Assembly (NCBI GenBank): GCA_013817305.1
Contig: JACDCY010000005.1
Coordinates: 1 to 64,000, forward strand
Source of the DNA: Gemmatimonadaceae bacterium
Lineage (GTDB): Bacteria; Gemmatimonadota; Gemmatimonadetes; Gemmatimonadales; Gemmatimonadaceae
Length of the DNA stretch: 64,000 nucleotides
Direction of reading: 5' to 3'
Within the stretch, counting starts at the first letter, position 1. Each line of letters begins with the position of its first letter. This document shows, piece after piece, positions 31,953 to 55,089 of the stretch. The notes under the pieces were generated by a model that had not been told where the DNA came from, did not search any database, and was given only the letters and a program-made list of their open reading frames with translations. Position numbers and translations under genes: made by a program.

Positions 31953-31974
31953 AACTATTGAGAAAGATATCAGG

Positions 31975-32068
31975 AATCAGTGATCAGTGATCAGAAAACT
32001 GATAACTGCCTGACTTCGGTTGCATGGGTGTGGTTGTTGATCACTGATCACTGATCACTCATCACTCA
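31975..32068. repeat. Heptamer (TGATCAG) inverted repeat between hpt and ftsH
   Basis: The left arm AATCAGTGATCAGTGATCAG (31975-31994) is complementary to the right arm around 32038-32056. On the minus strand the right arm begins at the hpt stop (TGA at 32066-32068) and repeats with a 7-base period (TGATGAG, TGATCAG, TGATCAG). The loop is about 45 bases. The left arm ends 22 bases before the ftsH start. Confidence 0.85.
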
Positions 32069-32617
32069 TTCAAGACTCGCGATATACGGCAAGTGCCGAA
32101 AATCCTCCGCGTGATCCAGACCGTATCCCACGAGAAATTCCTTCGGCGCATCGAACCCGACGAACTTCACGTCGTGCTTCATCCCCTCCGCGATCCGCTT
32201 GTGCAGCAGGGCGCAGATCTCGAGCGACTTGGGGCCGCGCTCCTTCATTATCTCCATCATCCGGCCGAGCGTGCGGCCGGAGTCCACGATGTCCTCGACG
32301 AGCAGTATGTGCTTGCCGGCGAGCTCGGTCTCCGGATCGTACAGCAGCCGCACGTTGCCGCTCGACACCATCGCGTCCCCGTAGCTGGACGCGACCAGGA
32401 AGTCCACCTGCAGCGGACGCGTGATCGTTCGCACGAGATCGCTCAGGAAAATGAAGCTTCCTTTGAGGAGGCCCAGGACCAGCAGCTCCCCGTCAGGGTA
32501 GGCGGCGGTGATCTCCGCACCAAGCTGGCCGACGCGGTCGGCGATCTCGCCTTCGTCGAAGGCGATGCGACGCACGGGCCTGCCCAGGAGCCGCGGATCC
32601 GCGACCAGGTCGGTCAT
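32066..32617 (-). CDS. hpt: Hypoxanthine phosphoribosyltransferase
   Basis: A 183-aa type I phosphoribosyltransferase salvaging hypoxanthine/guanine to nucleotides. The PRPP-binding motif LLVEDIVDSGRTL and the N-terminal VLGLLKGSFIFLSDLVR are characteristic. The start overlaps tilS by 4 bp; the order tilS-hpt-ftsH-folP is conserved in many bacteria. Confidence 0.95.
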   Translation of the reverse strand: MTDLVADPRLLGRPVRRIAFDEGEIADRVGQLGAEITAAYPDGELLVLGLLKGSFIFLSDLVRTITRPLQVDFLVASSYGDAMVSSGNVRLLYDPETELAGKHILLVEDIVDSGRTLGRMMEIMKERGPKSLEICALLHKRIAEGMKHDVKFVGFDAPKEFLVGYGLDHAEDFRHLPYIASLE

Positions 32618-33574: not shown

Positions 33575-33616
33575 AGGTATCAGGTATCAGGTATCAGGTA
33601 TCAGGTACCTGGTACC
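33575..33616. repeat. Heptamer (AGGTATC) tandem repeat between tilS and DUF4097 gene
   Basis: Four perfect copies of AGGTATC are followed by AGGTACC and TGGTACC, six units with a strict 7-base period on the plus strand. It lies in the 72-bp gap between the tilS start and the upstream DUF4097 stop. The same word recurs at 44127-44154, about 10.5 kb away. Confidence 0.95.
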
Positions 33617-37162: not shown

Positions 37163-39403
37163 TCATGAATCTCGTTACCGGAATGGGGCCCGCCTTCCTC
37201 CTCATCGCCGACACCGCGCTCAAGGGCGCGGTGCTGGTCGGACTCGCGGCCGCCGCGGCCTACCTGCTGCGGCATCGCTCCGCCGCGGCGAGACACGCCG
37301 TCTGGACCGCGGCAGTGCTCGGTCATCTCGCCCTTCCGGTTCTAATACTGGTCGCGCCGGAGTGGCGGGTACCCCTGCTGAAGTCACCGGGCTGGATGGT
37401 GCCCGCGCAGGGTGGAGCCGCTGCGGGGTTGACCGCCGGAAGTTCCTCGGATGCGCAATTGGATGCGGCGACGGTGACGGCGGCGCCGCAAACGCCGCAA
37501 ACTCCGGAGCCGGCCGCCGCAAATGCCGCGCAACCCTCGGTCCCTGCACCCGCTCCTGTCTCGACGGCGACAGCCCAGGCGCCGAACACCGTCTATTACC
37601 TGGCGCTCGCATGGATGCTCGGAGCCACATTCGTTCTCCTCAGGCTTGTCGCCGGCACCTGGCGCGTGTCGAGGCTCGCGCGCGAAGGCGCGCGCGTGGA
37701 CGACGGCGAGTGGCTGTCGCTCGCTCAGCGCGTAGCGACGCGCGTCGGAATAGCCCGGCCGTTGACCCTTCTCCGCGGCGACCGTCTCGGAATCCCCGTC
37801 ACATGGGGGATCATCTATCCGGCCGTTCTCCTTCCGCCTGAATCAGCGGAATGGCCGGAAGCACGCCGCCGATTCGTGCTCGCCGTGCGACGATTACGTC
37901 TTGCGCGACGGCACCGCGCCATCGCTCTACGCCGGCGAGCTGCTCGACATGGTCCGCTCGCTCAGCGCGCGCCGGCACGATCACACCGCTCCCGCGTTCG
38001 CGGCGCTGGCGATGGCGCGCCCCGCCGAGTTCGAGGGACGCATGCTCGCGATACTCAATCCCACCATCGATCGCAATCCTCTTCACAGCATGGGTACAGT
38101 CATGACAGCAGCATTCGTTGCGCTTCTTGCGCTGCCGCTCGCCGCGATCCACCCGTTCGGCGCGCCAGCCGTAAGAGCGGAGATTCCGGCGCCAGCTCCG
38201 GTCGGACTCGCCGCGCCCGAGCTACAGCCGAGCCCGGTCAACGTCGCCGGGTCGCTCGCCGAGCCCGTGGCGAGCGCCGCGCAGGGCCGGACGTGCGACG
38301 CAGCCGACGTCCGGATGGATGGAAGCACAATCCTGCACAGCACTCACACGGAAGCGAGCTCTTTGAGCTACCGCTACTTTACCACCGGCCGCTGCATCCA
38401 GGCGACGATCGTGGGACACCTGGAATTCTCCGACGACGAGCGCGCCATTGTTCGGGTCGGTGAGCGGGCTCACGGTTTCTTTCGCGAACGGCTGACCCGC
38501 AGCGATCGCTCCGTCGAAGTGCGACGCGGATCCGATGGCCGGCCGGTATATACCGCGCGCCAGAACGGGCGCGAAGTTGCTTTCGACGCGGGCATGCAAG
38601 GCTGGCTCGGGCGGTTTCTTCCGGAGCTCCTGCGCGAAGCCGGCATCAACGTTCCGGCCCGGGTCGCGCGACTGCGCACGAGCGGCGGCACCGCGGCAGT
38701 GCTCGCTGAGATCGAGCGCATCGACAACAGCGGGGCAAAGCGCGCCCATTATCAGGAGCTGATTCGCACGCCCTCGCTGCCATCCCGCGAGCTCGGTACG
38801 GCGCTGCGCCAGGCCGGGCGAGAGGTGACGAGCTCGGGTGACCTGCGCGGCATCCTGCAAAACGTCCCTGCGCAATCGCGCGGCGGCAGCGAGGTGCGCG
38901 CCGGGTTGGCGGAAGCGATCAGAGGGATCAAATCCAGCGGTGACAAGGCCGCCGTCCTCGCCAACTACGGCGACACCGACGACCCGGAGATGCTTCTGAT
39001 GGTGCTGACGGAAGTCCGCGGCATCACGAGCGACGGCGACAAGGCCCGGGTTCTGGCGCGGCTCGCGCCGCGCGCGGTTGGCCACCGCACGAAGGCCGTG
39101 TGCGATGCCTTCTTCGAAGCCGCCGAGACGATCGAATCCGATGGCGATCTGGCTCGTACGCTAAGTGTCGCCATGAATGCAGGCCGTTCTTCCGAGGACG
39201 TCTCGCACGCAGTCATCCGCGCCACGGCGCGGATCTCCTCGGCTCGAGACGCATCACGCGTGCTGCAGGAGGTCGCTGGTAAAGGCCTGGTGAATACCGC
39301 GAGGCTACGGTCGGCGTACGTCACCGCGGCCCGCAACATCAACTCGGACGGCGACTTCCGCCGCACGATGGACGCGCTCCTATCACGCGAGGGAAATCGC
39401 TGA
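37159..39403 (+). pseudogene. M56 (BlaR1-like) peptidase gene disrupted by internal deletion, with C-terminal repeats
   Basis: The 5' part (frame starting ATG 37159) encodes three or more membrane segments and LLRGDRLGIPVTWGIIYPAVLLPPESAEW, the usual lead-in to the zinc motif of M56 peptidases, ending at RRRFVL (about 37880). The frame then becomes non-homologous. In another frame, from about 37886, the code resumes at CDDYVLRDG, the conserved residues that normally lie about 60 residues after HExxH. The HExxH helix is therefore missing and the frame is broken. The 3' part continues to 39403 with a membrane segment and 34-residue repeats (SDGDKARVL). It could be a pseudogene or an assembly deletion. 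Confidence 0.8.
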
Positions 39404-42069
39404 TGCAGGTAGCTCTCAGGACAGGCATCGGCCTGGCCATCGCACTTACCGCACAGGCCGCCAACGCACAGAACACCCCGTCGCCGGCCCGCGCCGATAC
39501 AGGCATGCGTGCGAACAAGGTCGTAACCGCGACGCGCGTTCCCAACGGATCCATCCGCCCCGACGGCCGCCTGAATGAGACGGTATGGGCGGATGTCCCG
39601 GCAACCACTGATTTCCTGCAGAAGCAGCCCGTCGAAGGCGGCACGCCGACCGATCAGCTGGAGATCCGCATGGCGTACGACGACGACGCGCTATACGTGG
39701 GAACCCGGGTCCGGACGCGCGAGCGTCGCCCGATCCAGGCCGCGATCAGCCGGCGCGACGCCGTATCGCAGTCGGAGCACATTCAGGTGTCGCTCGACAC
39801 TTACCATGACAAGCGCACTGCATACACGTTCGTCATCACGGCGTCCGGCGTGCGCGCCGACTGGTATCACCCGAGCGACGACGAGCAAAACCGCGACAAT
39901 TCCTTCGACCCTGTCTGGACGGCAAATGCAGCCGTTGATTCGACCGGCTGGACGGCGGAGATGCGGATCCCCTTCTCGCAGCTGCGGTTCACCCGCGCCG
40001 ACAGCCACGTGTGGGGAGTCAACTTCGACCACTGGGTCCCGACGCGAAACGAAGAAGTATTCTGGATTCCGGTGCCGCGGAACGTCCGCGGCTGGTCGTC
40101 CTGGTTCGGTGAGCTGCGCGGCATCAGCGGCGTGCAGCCCACGCGGCGCCTCGAGATACTTCCTTATGTCGCGACGGAGGCAAAGCTCAACGCCGACCGG
40201 CATCCGCGGAACCCGTTCGACAACGGCGTGAATCTCACGCCGCGCGTCGGGGCCGACGTGAAGATGGGCGTAGGTCCGAACCTCACTCTGCAAGCGACCG
40301 TGAATCCCGACTTCGGCCAGGTCGAAGCAGACCCCGCCGAGGTGAATCTTTCGGCTTTCGAAACCTTCTTCTCGGAAAAGCGACCGTTCTTCCTCGAGGG
40401 GAGCCAGCTGCTGCCGGGCTACTTCTATTCGCGCCGCGTCGGCGCGCGTCCGCGCGGCCTGGCATCGTCCCACTTCGTGGACTATCCCGACAACAGCACG
40501 ATTCTCGGCGCCGCGAAGCTCACCGGCAGGTTGCGCTCCGGAACGTCGATCGGATCGCTCCTCGCCGTCACCAACCGTGAGCATGCGCAGCTGTACGACA
40601 CGACGACGAACGACTTCAGCAGGACCGTCGTTGCCCCGCTCACCGCGTATGGCGCGGGCCGAGTGCAGCGCGAGTTTGGTCGAAACGCATCCGTCGCGTC
40701 GGCCAGCTTGACGGCGGTCGAGCGTTGGCTGGATGACGACGGAAGCCTCGCCAGGCTGTTGAATCGGCGCGCGTACGCGGGAGCGACGGACGTGGTTCTC
40801 CGGCTCGCCGACCGCACTTACGAAGTGGCGGCACGGATCGGATTCAGTCAAATCCAGGGCGACACCAGCGCGATCCTGCTCGCGCAAAGGTCGAGCGCGC
40901 GCTACTTCCAGCGCCCCGACGCTACGTCCTACTACGTGGATCCGACGCGTACCTCGCTCACCGGGTTGAATTCCTTCGTCGAGGTTCAGAAGACCGGAGG
41001 CGGGCATTGGCGCGGTTACGCTTTTCTTGGCACGGAGTCCCCGGGCTTCGAGCTCAATGACGCAGGCCGGCTTGGCACCGCGGACGGCATTACCGCGGTC
41101 GGTCAGATCCGGTACATCGAAACCCGGCCCCGGAGCCGCTTGCTGCGACAATACTCGGTGTCGATGTCGCACGAGAACGAATGGAATTACGATCGCAACC
41201 GCCAGTTTGGCGCGATTCGCTCCGACGCCAGCCTTGAGTTCAGAAACTTCTGGACGCTGAACGTGACGGCGTGGCACGACGTGAACTCGCTCGACGCGCG
41301 CCTCACGCGTGGCGGTCCTCTGATGGGAACGCCGACGTCGAACGTCGGGATAATCCAGCTGAGCAACGCGGCCGGAGCGAACACGCGCTTGAGCGCGCGC
41401 ATTTACCACGGCGTAAACCAGTTCGGCGCGCCTACCACGCGGTACAGCGGAGGCATCACCTACCGTCCGACACCGCGCTGGCAGCTGTCGGTGGATCCGA
41501 ATTACCTGCACAGCGTGAATGCCCGCCAGTACATCACCACGCGCGCGAGCGGGCGCGCCGAGACGTACGACCGCCGCTACATCTTCTCGTGGATCGACCA
41601 GGACATCTTCCAGATGAACCTTCGCGCCAACTACACGTTCAAGCCTGATCTCACCCTCGAGGTGTACGCCCAGCCGTTTGCCGCGAGCGGACGGTACTAC
41701 GACTTCGGCGAGCTGCCCGCTCCGCGGGCTCTGGAACTCCGCTACTACGGAACCGACGGCACTTCCGCGATAAAAAACGCGGACGGCTCCATCACGGTGA
41801 CTGACGCCGCGGTGCCGGCGGCGGGCGGCGGACCCACGACGTTCACGCTCCCGTTACGCGACTTCAACATCCGCTCGCTCCGTAGCAACATGGTGGTCCG
41901 CTGGGAGTACCGGCCGGGAAGCACGCTCTTCTTCGTCTGGCAGCAGAATCGCGCAGCCGAGGAGACTCACGGGCGACGGATCGCGCTCGGCGACGTGTTC
42001 GATGGTTTCTCGGCGTCCGGCAACAACTTCTTCGCAGTCAAGGCGACGTTCTGGATGCCGGTGAAGTGA
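39403..42069 (+). CDS. CBM9-like and DUF5916 outer-membrane-associated protein
   Basis: An 888-aa exported protein: signal peptide (about 1-22), a carbohydrate-binding family 9-like domain (about 45-230: GRLNETVWADVPATTDFLQ, YDDDALYVGTRVRT), then DUF5916 (PDFGQVEADPAEVNLSAFETFFSEKRPFFLEG) and alternating beta strands to the C-terminus (ending FFAVKATFWMP), suggesting a barrel. Substrate unknown; DUF5916 proteins are common in diderm predators and Bacteroidetes-like bacteria. Its ATG shares one base with the upstream stop (TGATG). Confidence 0.85.
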   Translation: MQVALRTGIGLAIALTAQAANAQNTPSPARADTGMRANKVVTATRVPNGSIRPDGRLNETVWADVPATTDFLQKQPVEGGTPTDQLEIRMAYDDDALYVGTRVRTRERRPIQAAISRRDAVSQSEHIQVSLDTYHDKRTAYTFVITASGVRADWYHPSDDEQNRDNSFDPVWTANAAVDSTGWTAEMRIPFSQLRFTRADSHVWGVNFDHWVPTRNEEVFWIPVPRNVRGWSSWFGELRGISGVQPTRRLEILPYVATEAKLNADRHPRNPFDNGVNLTPRVGADVKMGVGPNLTLQATVNPDFGQVEADPAEVNLSAFETFFSEKRPFFLEGSQLLPGYFYSRRVGARPRGLASSHFVDYPDNSTILGAAKLTGRLRSGTSIGSLLAVTNREHAQLYDTTTNDFSRTVVAPLTAYGAGRVQREFGRNASVASASLTAVERWLDDDGSLARLLNRRAYAGATDVVLRLADRTYEVAARIGFSQIQGDTSAILLAQRSSARYFQRPDATSYYVDPTRTSLTGLNSFVEVQKTGGGHWRGYAFLGTESPGFELNDAGRLGTADGITAVGQIRYIETRPRSRLLRQYSVSMSHENEWNYDRNRQFGAIRSDASLEFRNFWTLNVTAWHDVNSLDARLTRGGPLMGTPTSNVGIIQLSNAAGANTRLSARIYHGVNQFGAPTTRYSGGITYRPTPRWQLSVDPNYLHSVNARQYITTRASGRAETYDRRYIFSWIDQDIFQMNLRANYTFKPDLTLEVYAQPFAASGRYYDFGELPAPRALELRYYGTDGTSAIKNADGSITVTDAAVPAAGGGPTTFTLPLRDFNIRSLRSNMVVRWEYRPGSTLFFVWQQNRAAEETHGRRIALGDVFDGFSASGNNFFAVKATFWMPVK

Positions 42070-42178
42070 TGGTTGAGCGATGAGTGGACGAGTGTCCCGT
42101 GAAGGTGCGTCTTAGCGAGCGCGGTTTGCTCGCGTAGCGCCGAAACGAGACACTCGTCCACTCATCGCTCACCATCAC
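42066..42178. repeat. 30-bp inverted repeat starting at both convergent stop codons
   Basis: The left arm 42066-42096 and right arm 42149-42178 are complementary over 30 bases with a single-base bulge. Each arm starts at the stop codon of its own gene (DUF5916 TGA at 42067, pal TGA on the minus strand at 42175-42177). On each strand the arm reads with a 7-base phase (TGATGGT, TGAGCGA, TGAGTGG, ACGAGTG). It may act as a two-sided terminator although no T run follows. Confidence 0.95.
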
Positions 42179-42762
42179 GGCTCATCAGTCACCTGCACGA
42201 ACTCCGCACGCCGGTTCTGCGCCCACGCCGATTCGGCGGAGCCGGCAACGGCTGGACGCTCTTCACCCATGCTCGAGATATCGATGCGCGTCGCGTCGAT
42301 TCCGTTGGCAACCAGATACGCCTTCAGCTCGGCGGCGCGACGCAGGCCGAGGGCAAGATTGTACTCGGACGACCCGCGCTCGTCCGTGTGCCCCGTTATC
42401 CGGACCCGGAAAGCCGGGCGCGCCTGAAGTGCGGGAATCTTCGCGTCGAGCGTGGCGCGCGATTCGGCCGATAGCGCGGCCTGGTCGTACTCGAAGTACA
42501 CGGTACCGGTAATCAGCGCTATGGCTTCCGCTTCCTGCGCCGCGACGAGCAGCGCGGCCTGTCGCTCCCGCTCCCGCTCCCTCTCGAGCTCGCGCTCGCG
42601 GATCGCGCGCAGGCTGTCGTCCACGGCCTGCTGCCGGGCGCGCTCCATCGAATCGGCCTGCGCCGTGCTTATCGGCGTGGCGACCAGGGGCTTCATGCGC
42701 TTGCCGCACGCAGCCATCGAAAGAACGATCACGACACAGAGTGCCACTGTGGATTTCTTCAT
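42175..42762 (-). CDS. pal: Peptidoglycan-associated lipoprotein (Pal/OmpA-C domain)
   Basis: A 195-aa outer-membrane lipoprotein of the Tol-Pal system. It has a lipobox near SMAACGK, an Arg/Glu-rich coiled linker, and the OmpA-C peptidoglycan-binding domain (VYFEYDQAALSAESRATLDAKI, ITGHTDERGSSEYNLALGLRRA, DISSMGEERP). It lies 31 bp after tolB on the same strand. TolQ, TolR and TolA are not in the window. Confidence 0.95.
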   Translation of the reverse strand: MKKSTVALCVVIVLSMAACGKRMKPLVATPISTAQADSMERARQQAVDDSLRAIRERELERERERERQAALLVAAQEAEAIALITGTVYFEYDQAALSAESRATLDAKIPALQARPAFRVRITGHTDERGSSEYNLALGLRRAAELKAYLVANGIDATRIDISSMGEERPAVAGSAESAWAQNRRAEFVQVTDEP

Positions 42763-44126: not shown

Positions 44127-44211
44127 AGGTATCAGGTATCAGGTATCAGGTATTGGACACCGCGAACCGGCAGCAAACGTTGTTACTAATAGCTAATACC
44201 TAATACCTTTA
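44127..44211. repeat. Heptamer inverted repeat (AGGTATC / CTAATAC) in the tolB divergent region
   Basis: The plus strand carries AGGTATC three times plus AGGTATT (44127-44154) and, after 31 bases, CTAATAG, CTAATAC, CTAATAC, CTTTAAT (44187-44211). The two arms are near complements, allowing for G-U pairs. It lies between divergent starts, so it is not simply a terminator. Confidence 0.85.
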
Positions 44212-48011: not shown

Positions 48012-48038
48012 CGCTCACTGATCACTGATCACTGATCA
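48012..48038. repeat. Heptamer (TGATCAG) spacer between gnd and zwf
   Basis: On the minus strand the gnd stop TGA (48038-48036) opens three TGATCAG copies followed by TGAGCGA, ending at the zwf ATG. The whole 24-bp spacer is repeat. Confidence 0.9.
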
Positions 48039-48929
48039 CTTCTTCACCGCGTGTCCGCCGAATTCGTTTCGAAGCGCTGCTATGAGCTTGGCCCCGTACG
48101 ACTCGTCCTGCCGCGACCGGAGCCGCATGAGCAACGCAAGCGTGATGACGGGGGCAGGCACGTCCAGGTCCACCGCCTCCTGCACCGTCCATCGGCCTTC
48201 GCCGCTGTCCGGGACAAACCCCTTCAACGCATCCACGTTTGCCGGATCTTTCAGCGCGCGCTCCGCCAGCTCGTTCAGCCACGACCGCACGACGCTCCCC
48301 CGGTTCCATAGCGCCGCGATCTTGTGCAGATCGAGATCGTACGACGATGCGTTGAGGATCTCGTACCCTTCAGCGTACGCCTGGAGCAGGCCGTACTCGA
48401 CGCCGTTGTGGACCATTTTTACGTAGTGTCCGGCTCCGGCCGCGCCCACATGAGCATATCCGCCATCCTGGGCGAGCGCGCGAAAGATCTCCTCGCAGTA
48501 CGAAACCGCGTCGTCCGCACCGCCGACCATCAGACAGTAGCCGTTTTCCAGCCCCCAGATGCCACCGCTGGTGCCGCAATCCAGGAGCGCGATCCCCTCA
48601 TGCTCGAGCGAGGCCGCGCGGCGCTGCGTGTCGTGGTAGTTGGAGTTGCCGCCGTCGATGATGATGTCGCCGGCCACGATGCCGGGCTTCAGCGCCTCGA
48701 TCGTCTCGTCCACAGGCGCGCCGGCGGGGATCATCAGCCACACGATCCTGCGGGCGCTCAACAGTGACAGAGCTTCGCCCGCGTCGCGCGCCCCGATCCC
48801 GCCGAGCTTCACGTATTCCGCGATCGCGGCGGGATTGCGGTCGTGCACCACCACGGAGTGGCCCGCGCGCAGCAGTCGCGCGCTCATATTTCCGCCCATC
48901 TTTCCGAGCCCGATCATTGCCAGCTGCAT
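48036..48929 (-). CDS. gnd: 6-phosphogluconate dehydrogenase, short (YqeC/GntZ-like) form
   Basis: A 297-aa decarboxylating dehydrogenase producing ribulose 5-phosphate. The Rossmann motif IGLGKMGGNMSARL, DGGNSNYHDTQ, GTSGGIWGLENGYCLMVGG and HNGVEYGLLQAYAEGYEIL are diagnostic. At about 300 aa it belongs to the short NAD-preferring group, not the 470-aa NADP form; coenzyme use is inferred from the group. It forms an operon with zwf. Confidence 0.93.
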   Translation of the reverse strand: MQLAMIGLGKMGGNMSARLLRAGHSVVVHDRNPAAIAEYVKLGGIGARDAGEALSLLSARRIVWLMIPAGAPVDETIEALKPGIVAGDIIIDGGNSNYHDTQRRAASLEHEGIALLDCGTSGGIWGLENGYCLMVGGADDAVSYCEEIFRALAQDGGYAHVGAAGAGHYVKMVHNGVEYGLLQAYAEGYEILNASSYDLDLHKIAALWNRGSVVRSWLNELAERALKDPANVDALKGFVPDSGEGRWTVQEAVDLDVPAPVITLALLMRLRSRQDESYGAKLIAALRNEFGGHAVKK

Positions 48930-49608: not shown

Positions 49609-49632
49609 CTACCTGGTTGACAAGCGAAAAGC

Positions 49633-49803
49633 GCTGCGCACTGCGTGCTGCGCGCTACGCCCTCGCGACATTGTCGAGGGAGTATGGCTCCCGCCCTGAC
49701 GCAGGGAGCCCATGACTACGGTTGAGTTGCCAGCGTGCTCGGACAATACCGAATCAGACACCGCAGCCCGACAGGGCGCAGGGCGCAGCACGCAGTGCGC
49801 AGC
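49633..49803. repeat. Heptamer (ACTGCGT / CGCAGTG) inverted repeat between apaG and kynB
   Basis: The arms 49633-49663 and 49773-49803 match over 28 of 31 bases as an inverted repeat. Each arm has a 7-base period (on the minus strand, after the apaG stop: CGCTGCG, CACTGCG, TGCTGCG, CCCTGCG, CCCTGTC). Inner hairpins CCCTCG/CGAGGG and GGCTCCC/GGGAGCC occupy the 109-base loop. The left arm lies 25 bases before the kynB-like start. Confidence 0.9.
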
Positions 49804-49808
49804 GTAGT

Positions 49809-54914: not shown

Positions 54915-55089
54915 CAGGGATGGGTAACTGGTCGTAGGTGATGGTTTTGGTTCCACGACTGGTAATGGTTAGCGGTCATTGGTCGGTGGTCGGTGGTAAA
55001 GCGGCAACCCTCAACCGTCAACCGTGAACCGTCGACCGTCAACCCGTGGTTGACCACAACCATCACCTACGACCAGTTACCCATCCCTG
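54915..55089. repeat. Perfect 32-bp inverted repeat with heptamer-repeat loop
   Basis: Arms 54915-54946 and 55058-55089 are perfect complements. The 111-base loop contains heptamers GGTCATT, GGTCGGT, GGTCGGT, GGTAAAG (54974-55001) and CCTCAAC, CGTCAAC, CGTGAAC, CGTCGAC, CGTCAAC (55009-55043). It fills most of the 245-bp gap before the S41 gene, which is otherwise empty. The left arm ends 39 bases before the S41 start. Confidence 0.97.

Follow-up and report, generated by a model that had tools for sequence, protein, structure and literature searches.

The two 30-base stretches that open at the stop codons of a DUF5916 gene and of pal are the two sides of one hairpin, and this hairpin belongs to a repeat family of ~50–70 members per genome, restricted to one genus of uncultured Gemmatimonadota and apparently undescribed so far. 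The junction lies in the window, a stretch of 64,000 nucleotides from a Gemmatimonadaceae bacterium (contig JACDCY010000005.1, positions 1–64,000), where the two genes are convergent and near-perfect inverted arms (42067–42100 and 42145–42177) start with the two TGA stops, both of which fall within the stem. The inverted repeat reported there by a preliminary description is present: the left arm, TGATGGTTGAGCGATGAGTGGACGAGTGTCCCGT, and the right arm read as its reverse complement, TGATGGTGAGCGATGAGTGGACGAGTGTCTCGT, differ by one bulged T and one C/T substitution over ~33 nt. Between them lies a hairpin loop (42108–42137), CGTCTTAGCGAGCGCGGTTTGCTCGCGTAG; the features are collected in Table 1. 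The fold is far beyond chance relative to shuffled sequences, whether computed as RNA (−89.8 kcal/mol, z = −11.2) or as DNA (−45.9 kcal/mol, z = −12.3).

Table 1. Features at the DUF5916/pal junction (window positions).
Feature	Position	Strand	Remarks
DUF5916 gene	39403-42069	+	PF19313; weak CBM9 domain; TGA stop 42067-42069; abuts element
Left arm (site-specific outer stem) and left side of internal loop	42067..42103	+	opens with the DUF5916 stop
Inner stem, left side, 4 bp (GGTG)	42104..42107	+	pairs with CGCC 42138-42141; register k=1-4, 70 aligned copies; covariation
Conserved core CGTCTTA-GCGAGC-GCGGTTT-GCTCGC-GTAG, the interspersed repeat	42108..42137	+	
Inner stem, right side (CGCC), and right side of internal loop (GAA)	42138..42144	+	
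Right arm, reverse complement of left arm	42145..42177	+	holds pal stop 42177-42175 (minus strand)
pal	42175-42762	-	OmpA-domain protein; TGA stop 42177-42175; abuts element

When the region was compared at the DNA level with three congeners (G001, G002 and G003; source genome, G000; all four draft assemblies, 89–99% complete), the piece between the arms, and not the arm, proved to be repetitive. A seed spanning 42088–42157 gave at least 38–42 matches in each of G000, G001 and G003, and copies of the core with ≤3 mismatches numbered 53, 46, 37 and 56 in G000, G001, G002 and G003, against none in 194 other genomes of the class; a reversed-pattern control also returned none. Mismatch counts of core candidates were bimodal, at 0–2 or 6. 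A covariance model built from 36 copies recovered at least 52 matches per congener, compared with one weak match in 95 other genomes of the taxonomic family, and a search with a relaxed apex recovered 70, 56 and 40 copies in G000, G001 and G003, compared with 0–1 elsewhere. The exact core occurred in 1/84,980 GTDB species genomes, that of uncultured Gemmatimonadetes bacterium SRR6670122_bin.51, which is the same as G003. It had no exact match in the viral contigs of IMG/VR, and a viral origin was rejected on that result. A known RNA family was likewise rejected: 4227 Rfam covariance models gave no match in the window at gathering score beyond tRNAs, and at a lax threshold the copies gave only below-threshold miRNA-type matches, together with the true rnpB nearby.

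That a repeat rather than an arm is dispersed bears directly on how the two stops came to share a sequence. The preliminary description was right to regard independent evolution as unlikely, and its dispersed unit at gene ends also stands. The two arms form the stem of a single element, private to this site, and between species they change jointly; its 30-nt repeat, copied or inverted onto two stops, does not, the loop and not the arm being what is repeated. An event that locally inverted a 30-nt unit, or copied it, onto the second stop codon would fit arms that are nearly identical and both start at TGA, but dozens of other sites have the same layout and the same loop with a different private arm, and the genome search for the arm that had been proposed finds it nowhere else. 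These observations refute such an event as a sufficient explanation, leaving it extremely unlikely, and dispose of the arm as a dispersed repeat.

The element is ~100 nt long and self-complementary, with a near-invariant ‘tip’ that caps ~30 bp of stem, and each site has its own stem sequence. In each copy the tip reads CGTCTTAGC..GC-loop-GC..GCGTAG, while the outer stem is unrelated between copies; the consensus of the apical motif is NNNN-CGTCTTA-GCnnGC-loop-GCnnGC-GTAG-N'N'N'N'. Across 104 aligned copies most core positions, unpaired ones included, are invariant or nearly so, and the GTAG 3′ of the tip hairpin is invariant. Position k on the left pairs with position k on the right, giving four inner pairs, a 3×3 internal loop and then the outer stem, which has a recurrent non-Watson-Crick position (G opposite T, A or G) at k = 14 and mostly ends near k = 30–40 (median 23 Watson-Crick pairs). 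In the consensus structure 85.5% of cells are paired, and covariation is 0.449, compared with 0.153 when shuffled and ≤0.166 for slid structures. The tip stem occurs as GA/TC, TC/GA, CG/CG and GA/GA, the last a tandem G.A mismatch. The apical loop, closed by C-G in nearly all of 161 copies, is mostly GYAGTKT; short loops are GNA triloops (GAA, GCA, GTA, GGA) or GNNA (GACA, GCCA). GNRA tetraloops, the usual choice in RNA, were not seen among the tips of these 161 copies. In DNA, GNA and GNNA loops are reported to give extraordinarily stable mini-hairpins (PMC4686876).

The heptads that had been read into the arms are not significant: lag-7 self-matching in the left arm has p = 0.03 at that single lag, rising to 0.19 over lags 3–12, the right arm gives p = 0.26, and the arms of all family copies are without lag-7 excess. 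Arrays of 7-nt tandem repeats do occur between genes as a class separate from the hairpin family. The window contains six (32038–32066, 33575–33614, 44127–44153, 48015–48040, 49772–49803 and 55005–55044), with the units TGATCAC, AGGTATC (twice), TCACTGA, CAGGGCG and CAACCGT. Among the genomes sampled, perfect tandem repeats between genes are almost only of period 7 or 14, with 20 and 52 period-7 arrays compared with ≤2 of any other period, and the favourite unit differs by species (ACTGATC in G000, ACTAGTC in G001); arrays of AGGTATC and CGCTGCG type match numerous sites elsewhere in G003. Three other long hairpins between genes (31958–32073, 49632–49804 and 54915–55089 of the window) lack the core, the first two being apparently heptad-built.

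Copies of the family are almost all intergenic. In 556 kb of G000 and 570 kb of G001, where per-kb densities and junction shares are not genome averages because the stretches were chosen around copies, the element was present in 17/60 convergent, 44/309 co-directional and 4/93 divergent intergenic regions (convergent 28% versus divergent 4%, Fisher p = 5 × 10−5). Copies turn their right side to the closest gene end at 54 stops and 23 starts, three copies face a gene end only on the left and 13 are far from either; the base of the stem typically lies ~15 nt beyond the stop codon. Where two elements are <400 bp apart they are tail to tail in 23/23 cases, in (−,+) orientation, with variable spacing (76–370 bp). 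Flanking genes, judged by Pfam domains, are housekeeping ones (accC, ftsK, a pilT-type ATPase, clpC, bamA, obg, cysS, leuS, preA/preT), and copies also lie just past rnpB. On one bracketed contig of 20 kb (L087, G000:C187, 203–19786), five consecutive transcription units (aldehyde dehydrogenase, amidohydrolase to preT, preA, CMD-obg and radical SAM) are each preceded by a + element and followed by a − element. Genes bracketed by copies are metabolic or housekeeping, and an autonomous element bracketed by copies was rejected on their identity (aldehyde dehydrogenase, preA, obg, a cytidylyltransferase-like protein and similar).

Such a distribution invites the reading that the element is a bidirectional terminator or a stabiliser of mRNA 3′ ends, working as a hairpin in the RNA transcribed from the neighbouring genes. 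The great stability of the hairpin, its strong enrichment at convergent and stop-proximal sites with the stem base so close to the stop, and the copies past rnpB all speak for this. By the usual description of intrinsic (Rho-independent) terminators, a stable hairpin downstream of the stop is found, but the U-tract that should follow it is not: no U-tract or T-run was seen beside the stems in the printed copies (by eye, unscored). Moreover, termination needs neither invariant unpaired apical bases nor tail-to-tail pairing, and 23 copies face start codons. Together with the mispairs described below, these points make a terminator or stabiliser rather unlikely.

Mispairs were counted from gapped pairing, an ungapped register losing many stems. 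Read on the + strand, isolated stem mispairs comprised 82 G.T, 42 A.C and 64 others, with orthologues being non-independent, which weakens the p-value for G.T against A.C. The greater tolerance for G.T than for A.C points to the + strand as the one more likely required to fold. The same excess holds in stop-adjacent copies (22 G.T, 10 A.C), where the + strand is antisense to mRNA; the tolerance is thus on the strand antisense to the neighbouring message, a pattern that argues against an mRNA 3′-end element. Taken with the GNA tips, the mispairs lean towards folded single-stranded DNA, although G.T over A.C also fits a + strand RNA. That excess, and the covariation in the consensus structure, would suit a family of small structured + strand RNAs whose transcription starts in the spacer between elements and runs outwards. 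Such RNAs would, however, need divergent promoters in every 76–370-bp spacer and antisense transcription into gene 3′ ends, they have no Rfam relative at the lax threshold, and the short tips are of the DNA-type GNA kind; we consider a small RNA family highly doubtful.

Comparison between species shows the tip to be kept while the arms turn over. Over 18 orthologous pairs divergence is 4% in the core and 29% in the arms, and at the rnpB site the three species G000, G001 and G003 have three different, fully paired stems. The same junction in relatives, suggested at the outset as a check, is informative at pal in two different ways. Between G000 and G003 the tip is identical and the arms have changed together, GATGAGTGG becoming GATAGCGG on both sides, and the G003 DUF5916 gene is deleted to ~13 C-terminal codons (VKATFWTPIK*) beside the element (L187:7450–7760). 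G002, in which the DUF5916 gene is deleted with a possible remnant (VKAT; L189:1739–1990), instead carries a hairpin of TGACTAG heptads after pal in place of the element. Orthologous arms diverging gradually from a conserved terminator, the outcome named beforehand as the refuting one, are not what is seen: the core is kept, and the arms change jointly or are replaced.

Some orthologous sites have runs of 3–5 consecutive doubly changed pairs. One-sided arm changes are nevertheless common between orthologues, so matching is restored rather than never lost, and homogenisation is not instantaneous. Template switching is a documented source of concerted arm changes (PMC8794818), and selection on pairing alone could also yield concerted arms at the divergence observed. 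Template switching across the hairpin, acting jointly with selection for pairing, best accounts for the concerted arms.

Presence of the element at orthologous sites bears on whether it moves. Where a G000/G001 junction has the element in either genome, 13/20 have it in both, and at several junctions where the element seems to be missing, a variant with an enlarged or shortened tip is present. Enlarged tips were found in G001 at L160:2303–2679, L160:6892–7156 and L181:915–1127, two of which share an inserted hairpin, CGGGTGCCCACTCGCGAAGCGAGTAGGGCGGGATAG. At one junction the genes overlap in G001, are separated by a 139-bp spacer with the element in G000, and have a shortened-tip element in G002. 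In G003 (L223/L220, G003:C123) there is ~900 bp of gene-like sequence where G001 has a 4-nt gene overlap and G000 the element. In the cleanest pair of occupied and empty sites neither arm resembles the flanks of the empty site and no target duplication is visible, and the notion that arms are copied from the target site is unsupported there.

A non-autonomous mobile element of REP, REPIN or MITE type, moved by a putative transposase with a preference for gene ends, would account for an interspersed, multi-copy family with inverted pairs and for presence/absence differences at orthologous junctions. It is hard to square with a majority of sites common to G000 and G001, with arms private to each site, with genomes in which no two copies look recently duplicated, and with the cleanest occupied/empty pair. 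Nor was the RAYT Y1 transposase (PF01797) found in any of the four genus genomes, the same search detecting it in three other relatives and five control genomes, and a RAYT/REP system was rejected for the genus on this basis. Mobility of this type is, in our judgement, distinctly unlikely.

We put the chances at about even that the family consists of REP/BIME-like extragenic elements in which a folded + strand DNA hairpin is recognised, its arms being matched by template switching and selection. As to how this observed family might work, we infer that the + strand would fold in single-stranded form, either on extrusion by superhelical stress or during exposure at the replication fork, and that a putative chromosomal protein would recognise the apex. 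The element would then act like REP/BIME units of Escherichia coli, as a boundary between transcription units that relieves supercoils or binds topoisomerase and so limits read-through from adjacent units. Since the arms would need only to pair, their sequence could drift freely, while template switching across the hairpin at replication, with selection for pairing, would copy changes from arm to arm; both stops at the DUF5916/pal junction would for this reason open with the same 30 bases. In E. coli, BIME-2 and the DNA downstream of transcribed units show an enrichment of gyrase cleavage sites (PMC6379681), and by analogy the family may share a role at transcription-unit boundaries, where gyrase acts in that species. 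Nothing is claimed about a gyrase signature in phased G+C, for which the null was not specific, and the 23 copies near start codons are unexplained by a simple end-of-gene role. More tentatively, the tip could be an ‘address tag’: a putative protein would read the invariant mini-hairpin solely as folded + strand DNA at 50–70 gene boundaries, with template switching at replication continually rewriting both arms of the stem at once, so that every boundary would have a stem sequence of its own.

As a clean natural data set, the family bears on an open question, namely how the two arms of long, near-perfect stems continue to match as the sequence changes. With dozens of orthologous hairpins from four related genomes, constant at the tip and free to evolve in the arms, template-switch change could be distinguished from stepwise compensation. 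In the literature searched, no REP/BIME-like boundary elements were described in the phylum Gemmatimonadota.

Several known systems resemble the family in part. Integron attC sites are recognised as folded single strands, conserve structure over sequence and carry unpaired signature bases; they lie in cassette arrays and have R-box core sites (RYYYAAC/GTTRRRY) where the folded strand has its base. The family is like them in its fold over sequence, its unpaired signature bases and, presumably, recognition of a folded strand, but it conserves the tip and not the base, alternates in orientation and has housekeeping flanking genes; no attC-type cassette-array layout was seen around its copies in a by-eye comparison. 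Intergenic heptamer repeats (TAACTGA) of Beggiatoaceae and cyanobacteria (PMC4679880) have a counterpart in the 7-nt tandem arrays of the genus, but these are a separate class and the family arms are not heptad-periodic. The short tips are, as in d(GCGNAGC) DNA mini-hairpins, C(GNA)G or C(GNNA)G on G-C pairs, although PMC4686876 describes oligonucleotide motifs and here they are part of a genomic family. With REPINs, which are inverted REP doublets (PMC3116915), the family shares inverted doublets and compensatory changes; it differs in that a single member already forms a long hairpin, in its variable spacing and in having no cognate transposase found.

REP/BIME units, palindromes associated with RAYTs in enterobacteria and Pseudomonas (PMC2817692, PMC12306157), are the closest in layout: like them, the family is extragenic, palindromic and lineage-specific, lies near gene 3′ ends in tens to hundreds of copies, and has inverted pairs with spacers and interrupted stems. 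By the descriptions in those two papers, it has the extragenic multi-copy habit (37–56 strict copies per genome) and the palindromic stem-loop of REPs. REPs are, however, short (~14–40 nt in E. coli) and alike over their length, have a GT(A/G)G head 5′ of the palindrome and have a cognate RAYT flanked by inverted copies, whereas the ~100-nt element here is alike only over a 30-nt core and adjacent positions, with a private stem per copy, carries its GTAG 3′ of the tip hairpin and has sites mostly common to species in a genus where no RAYT/Y1 transposase was found. Because length and overall similarity, the 5′ head and the cognate RAYT all fail, we do not call the family REP; its existence suggests that boundary elements of the REP/BIME kind can occur with no RAYT transposase.
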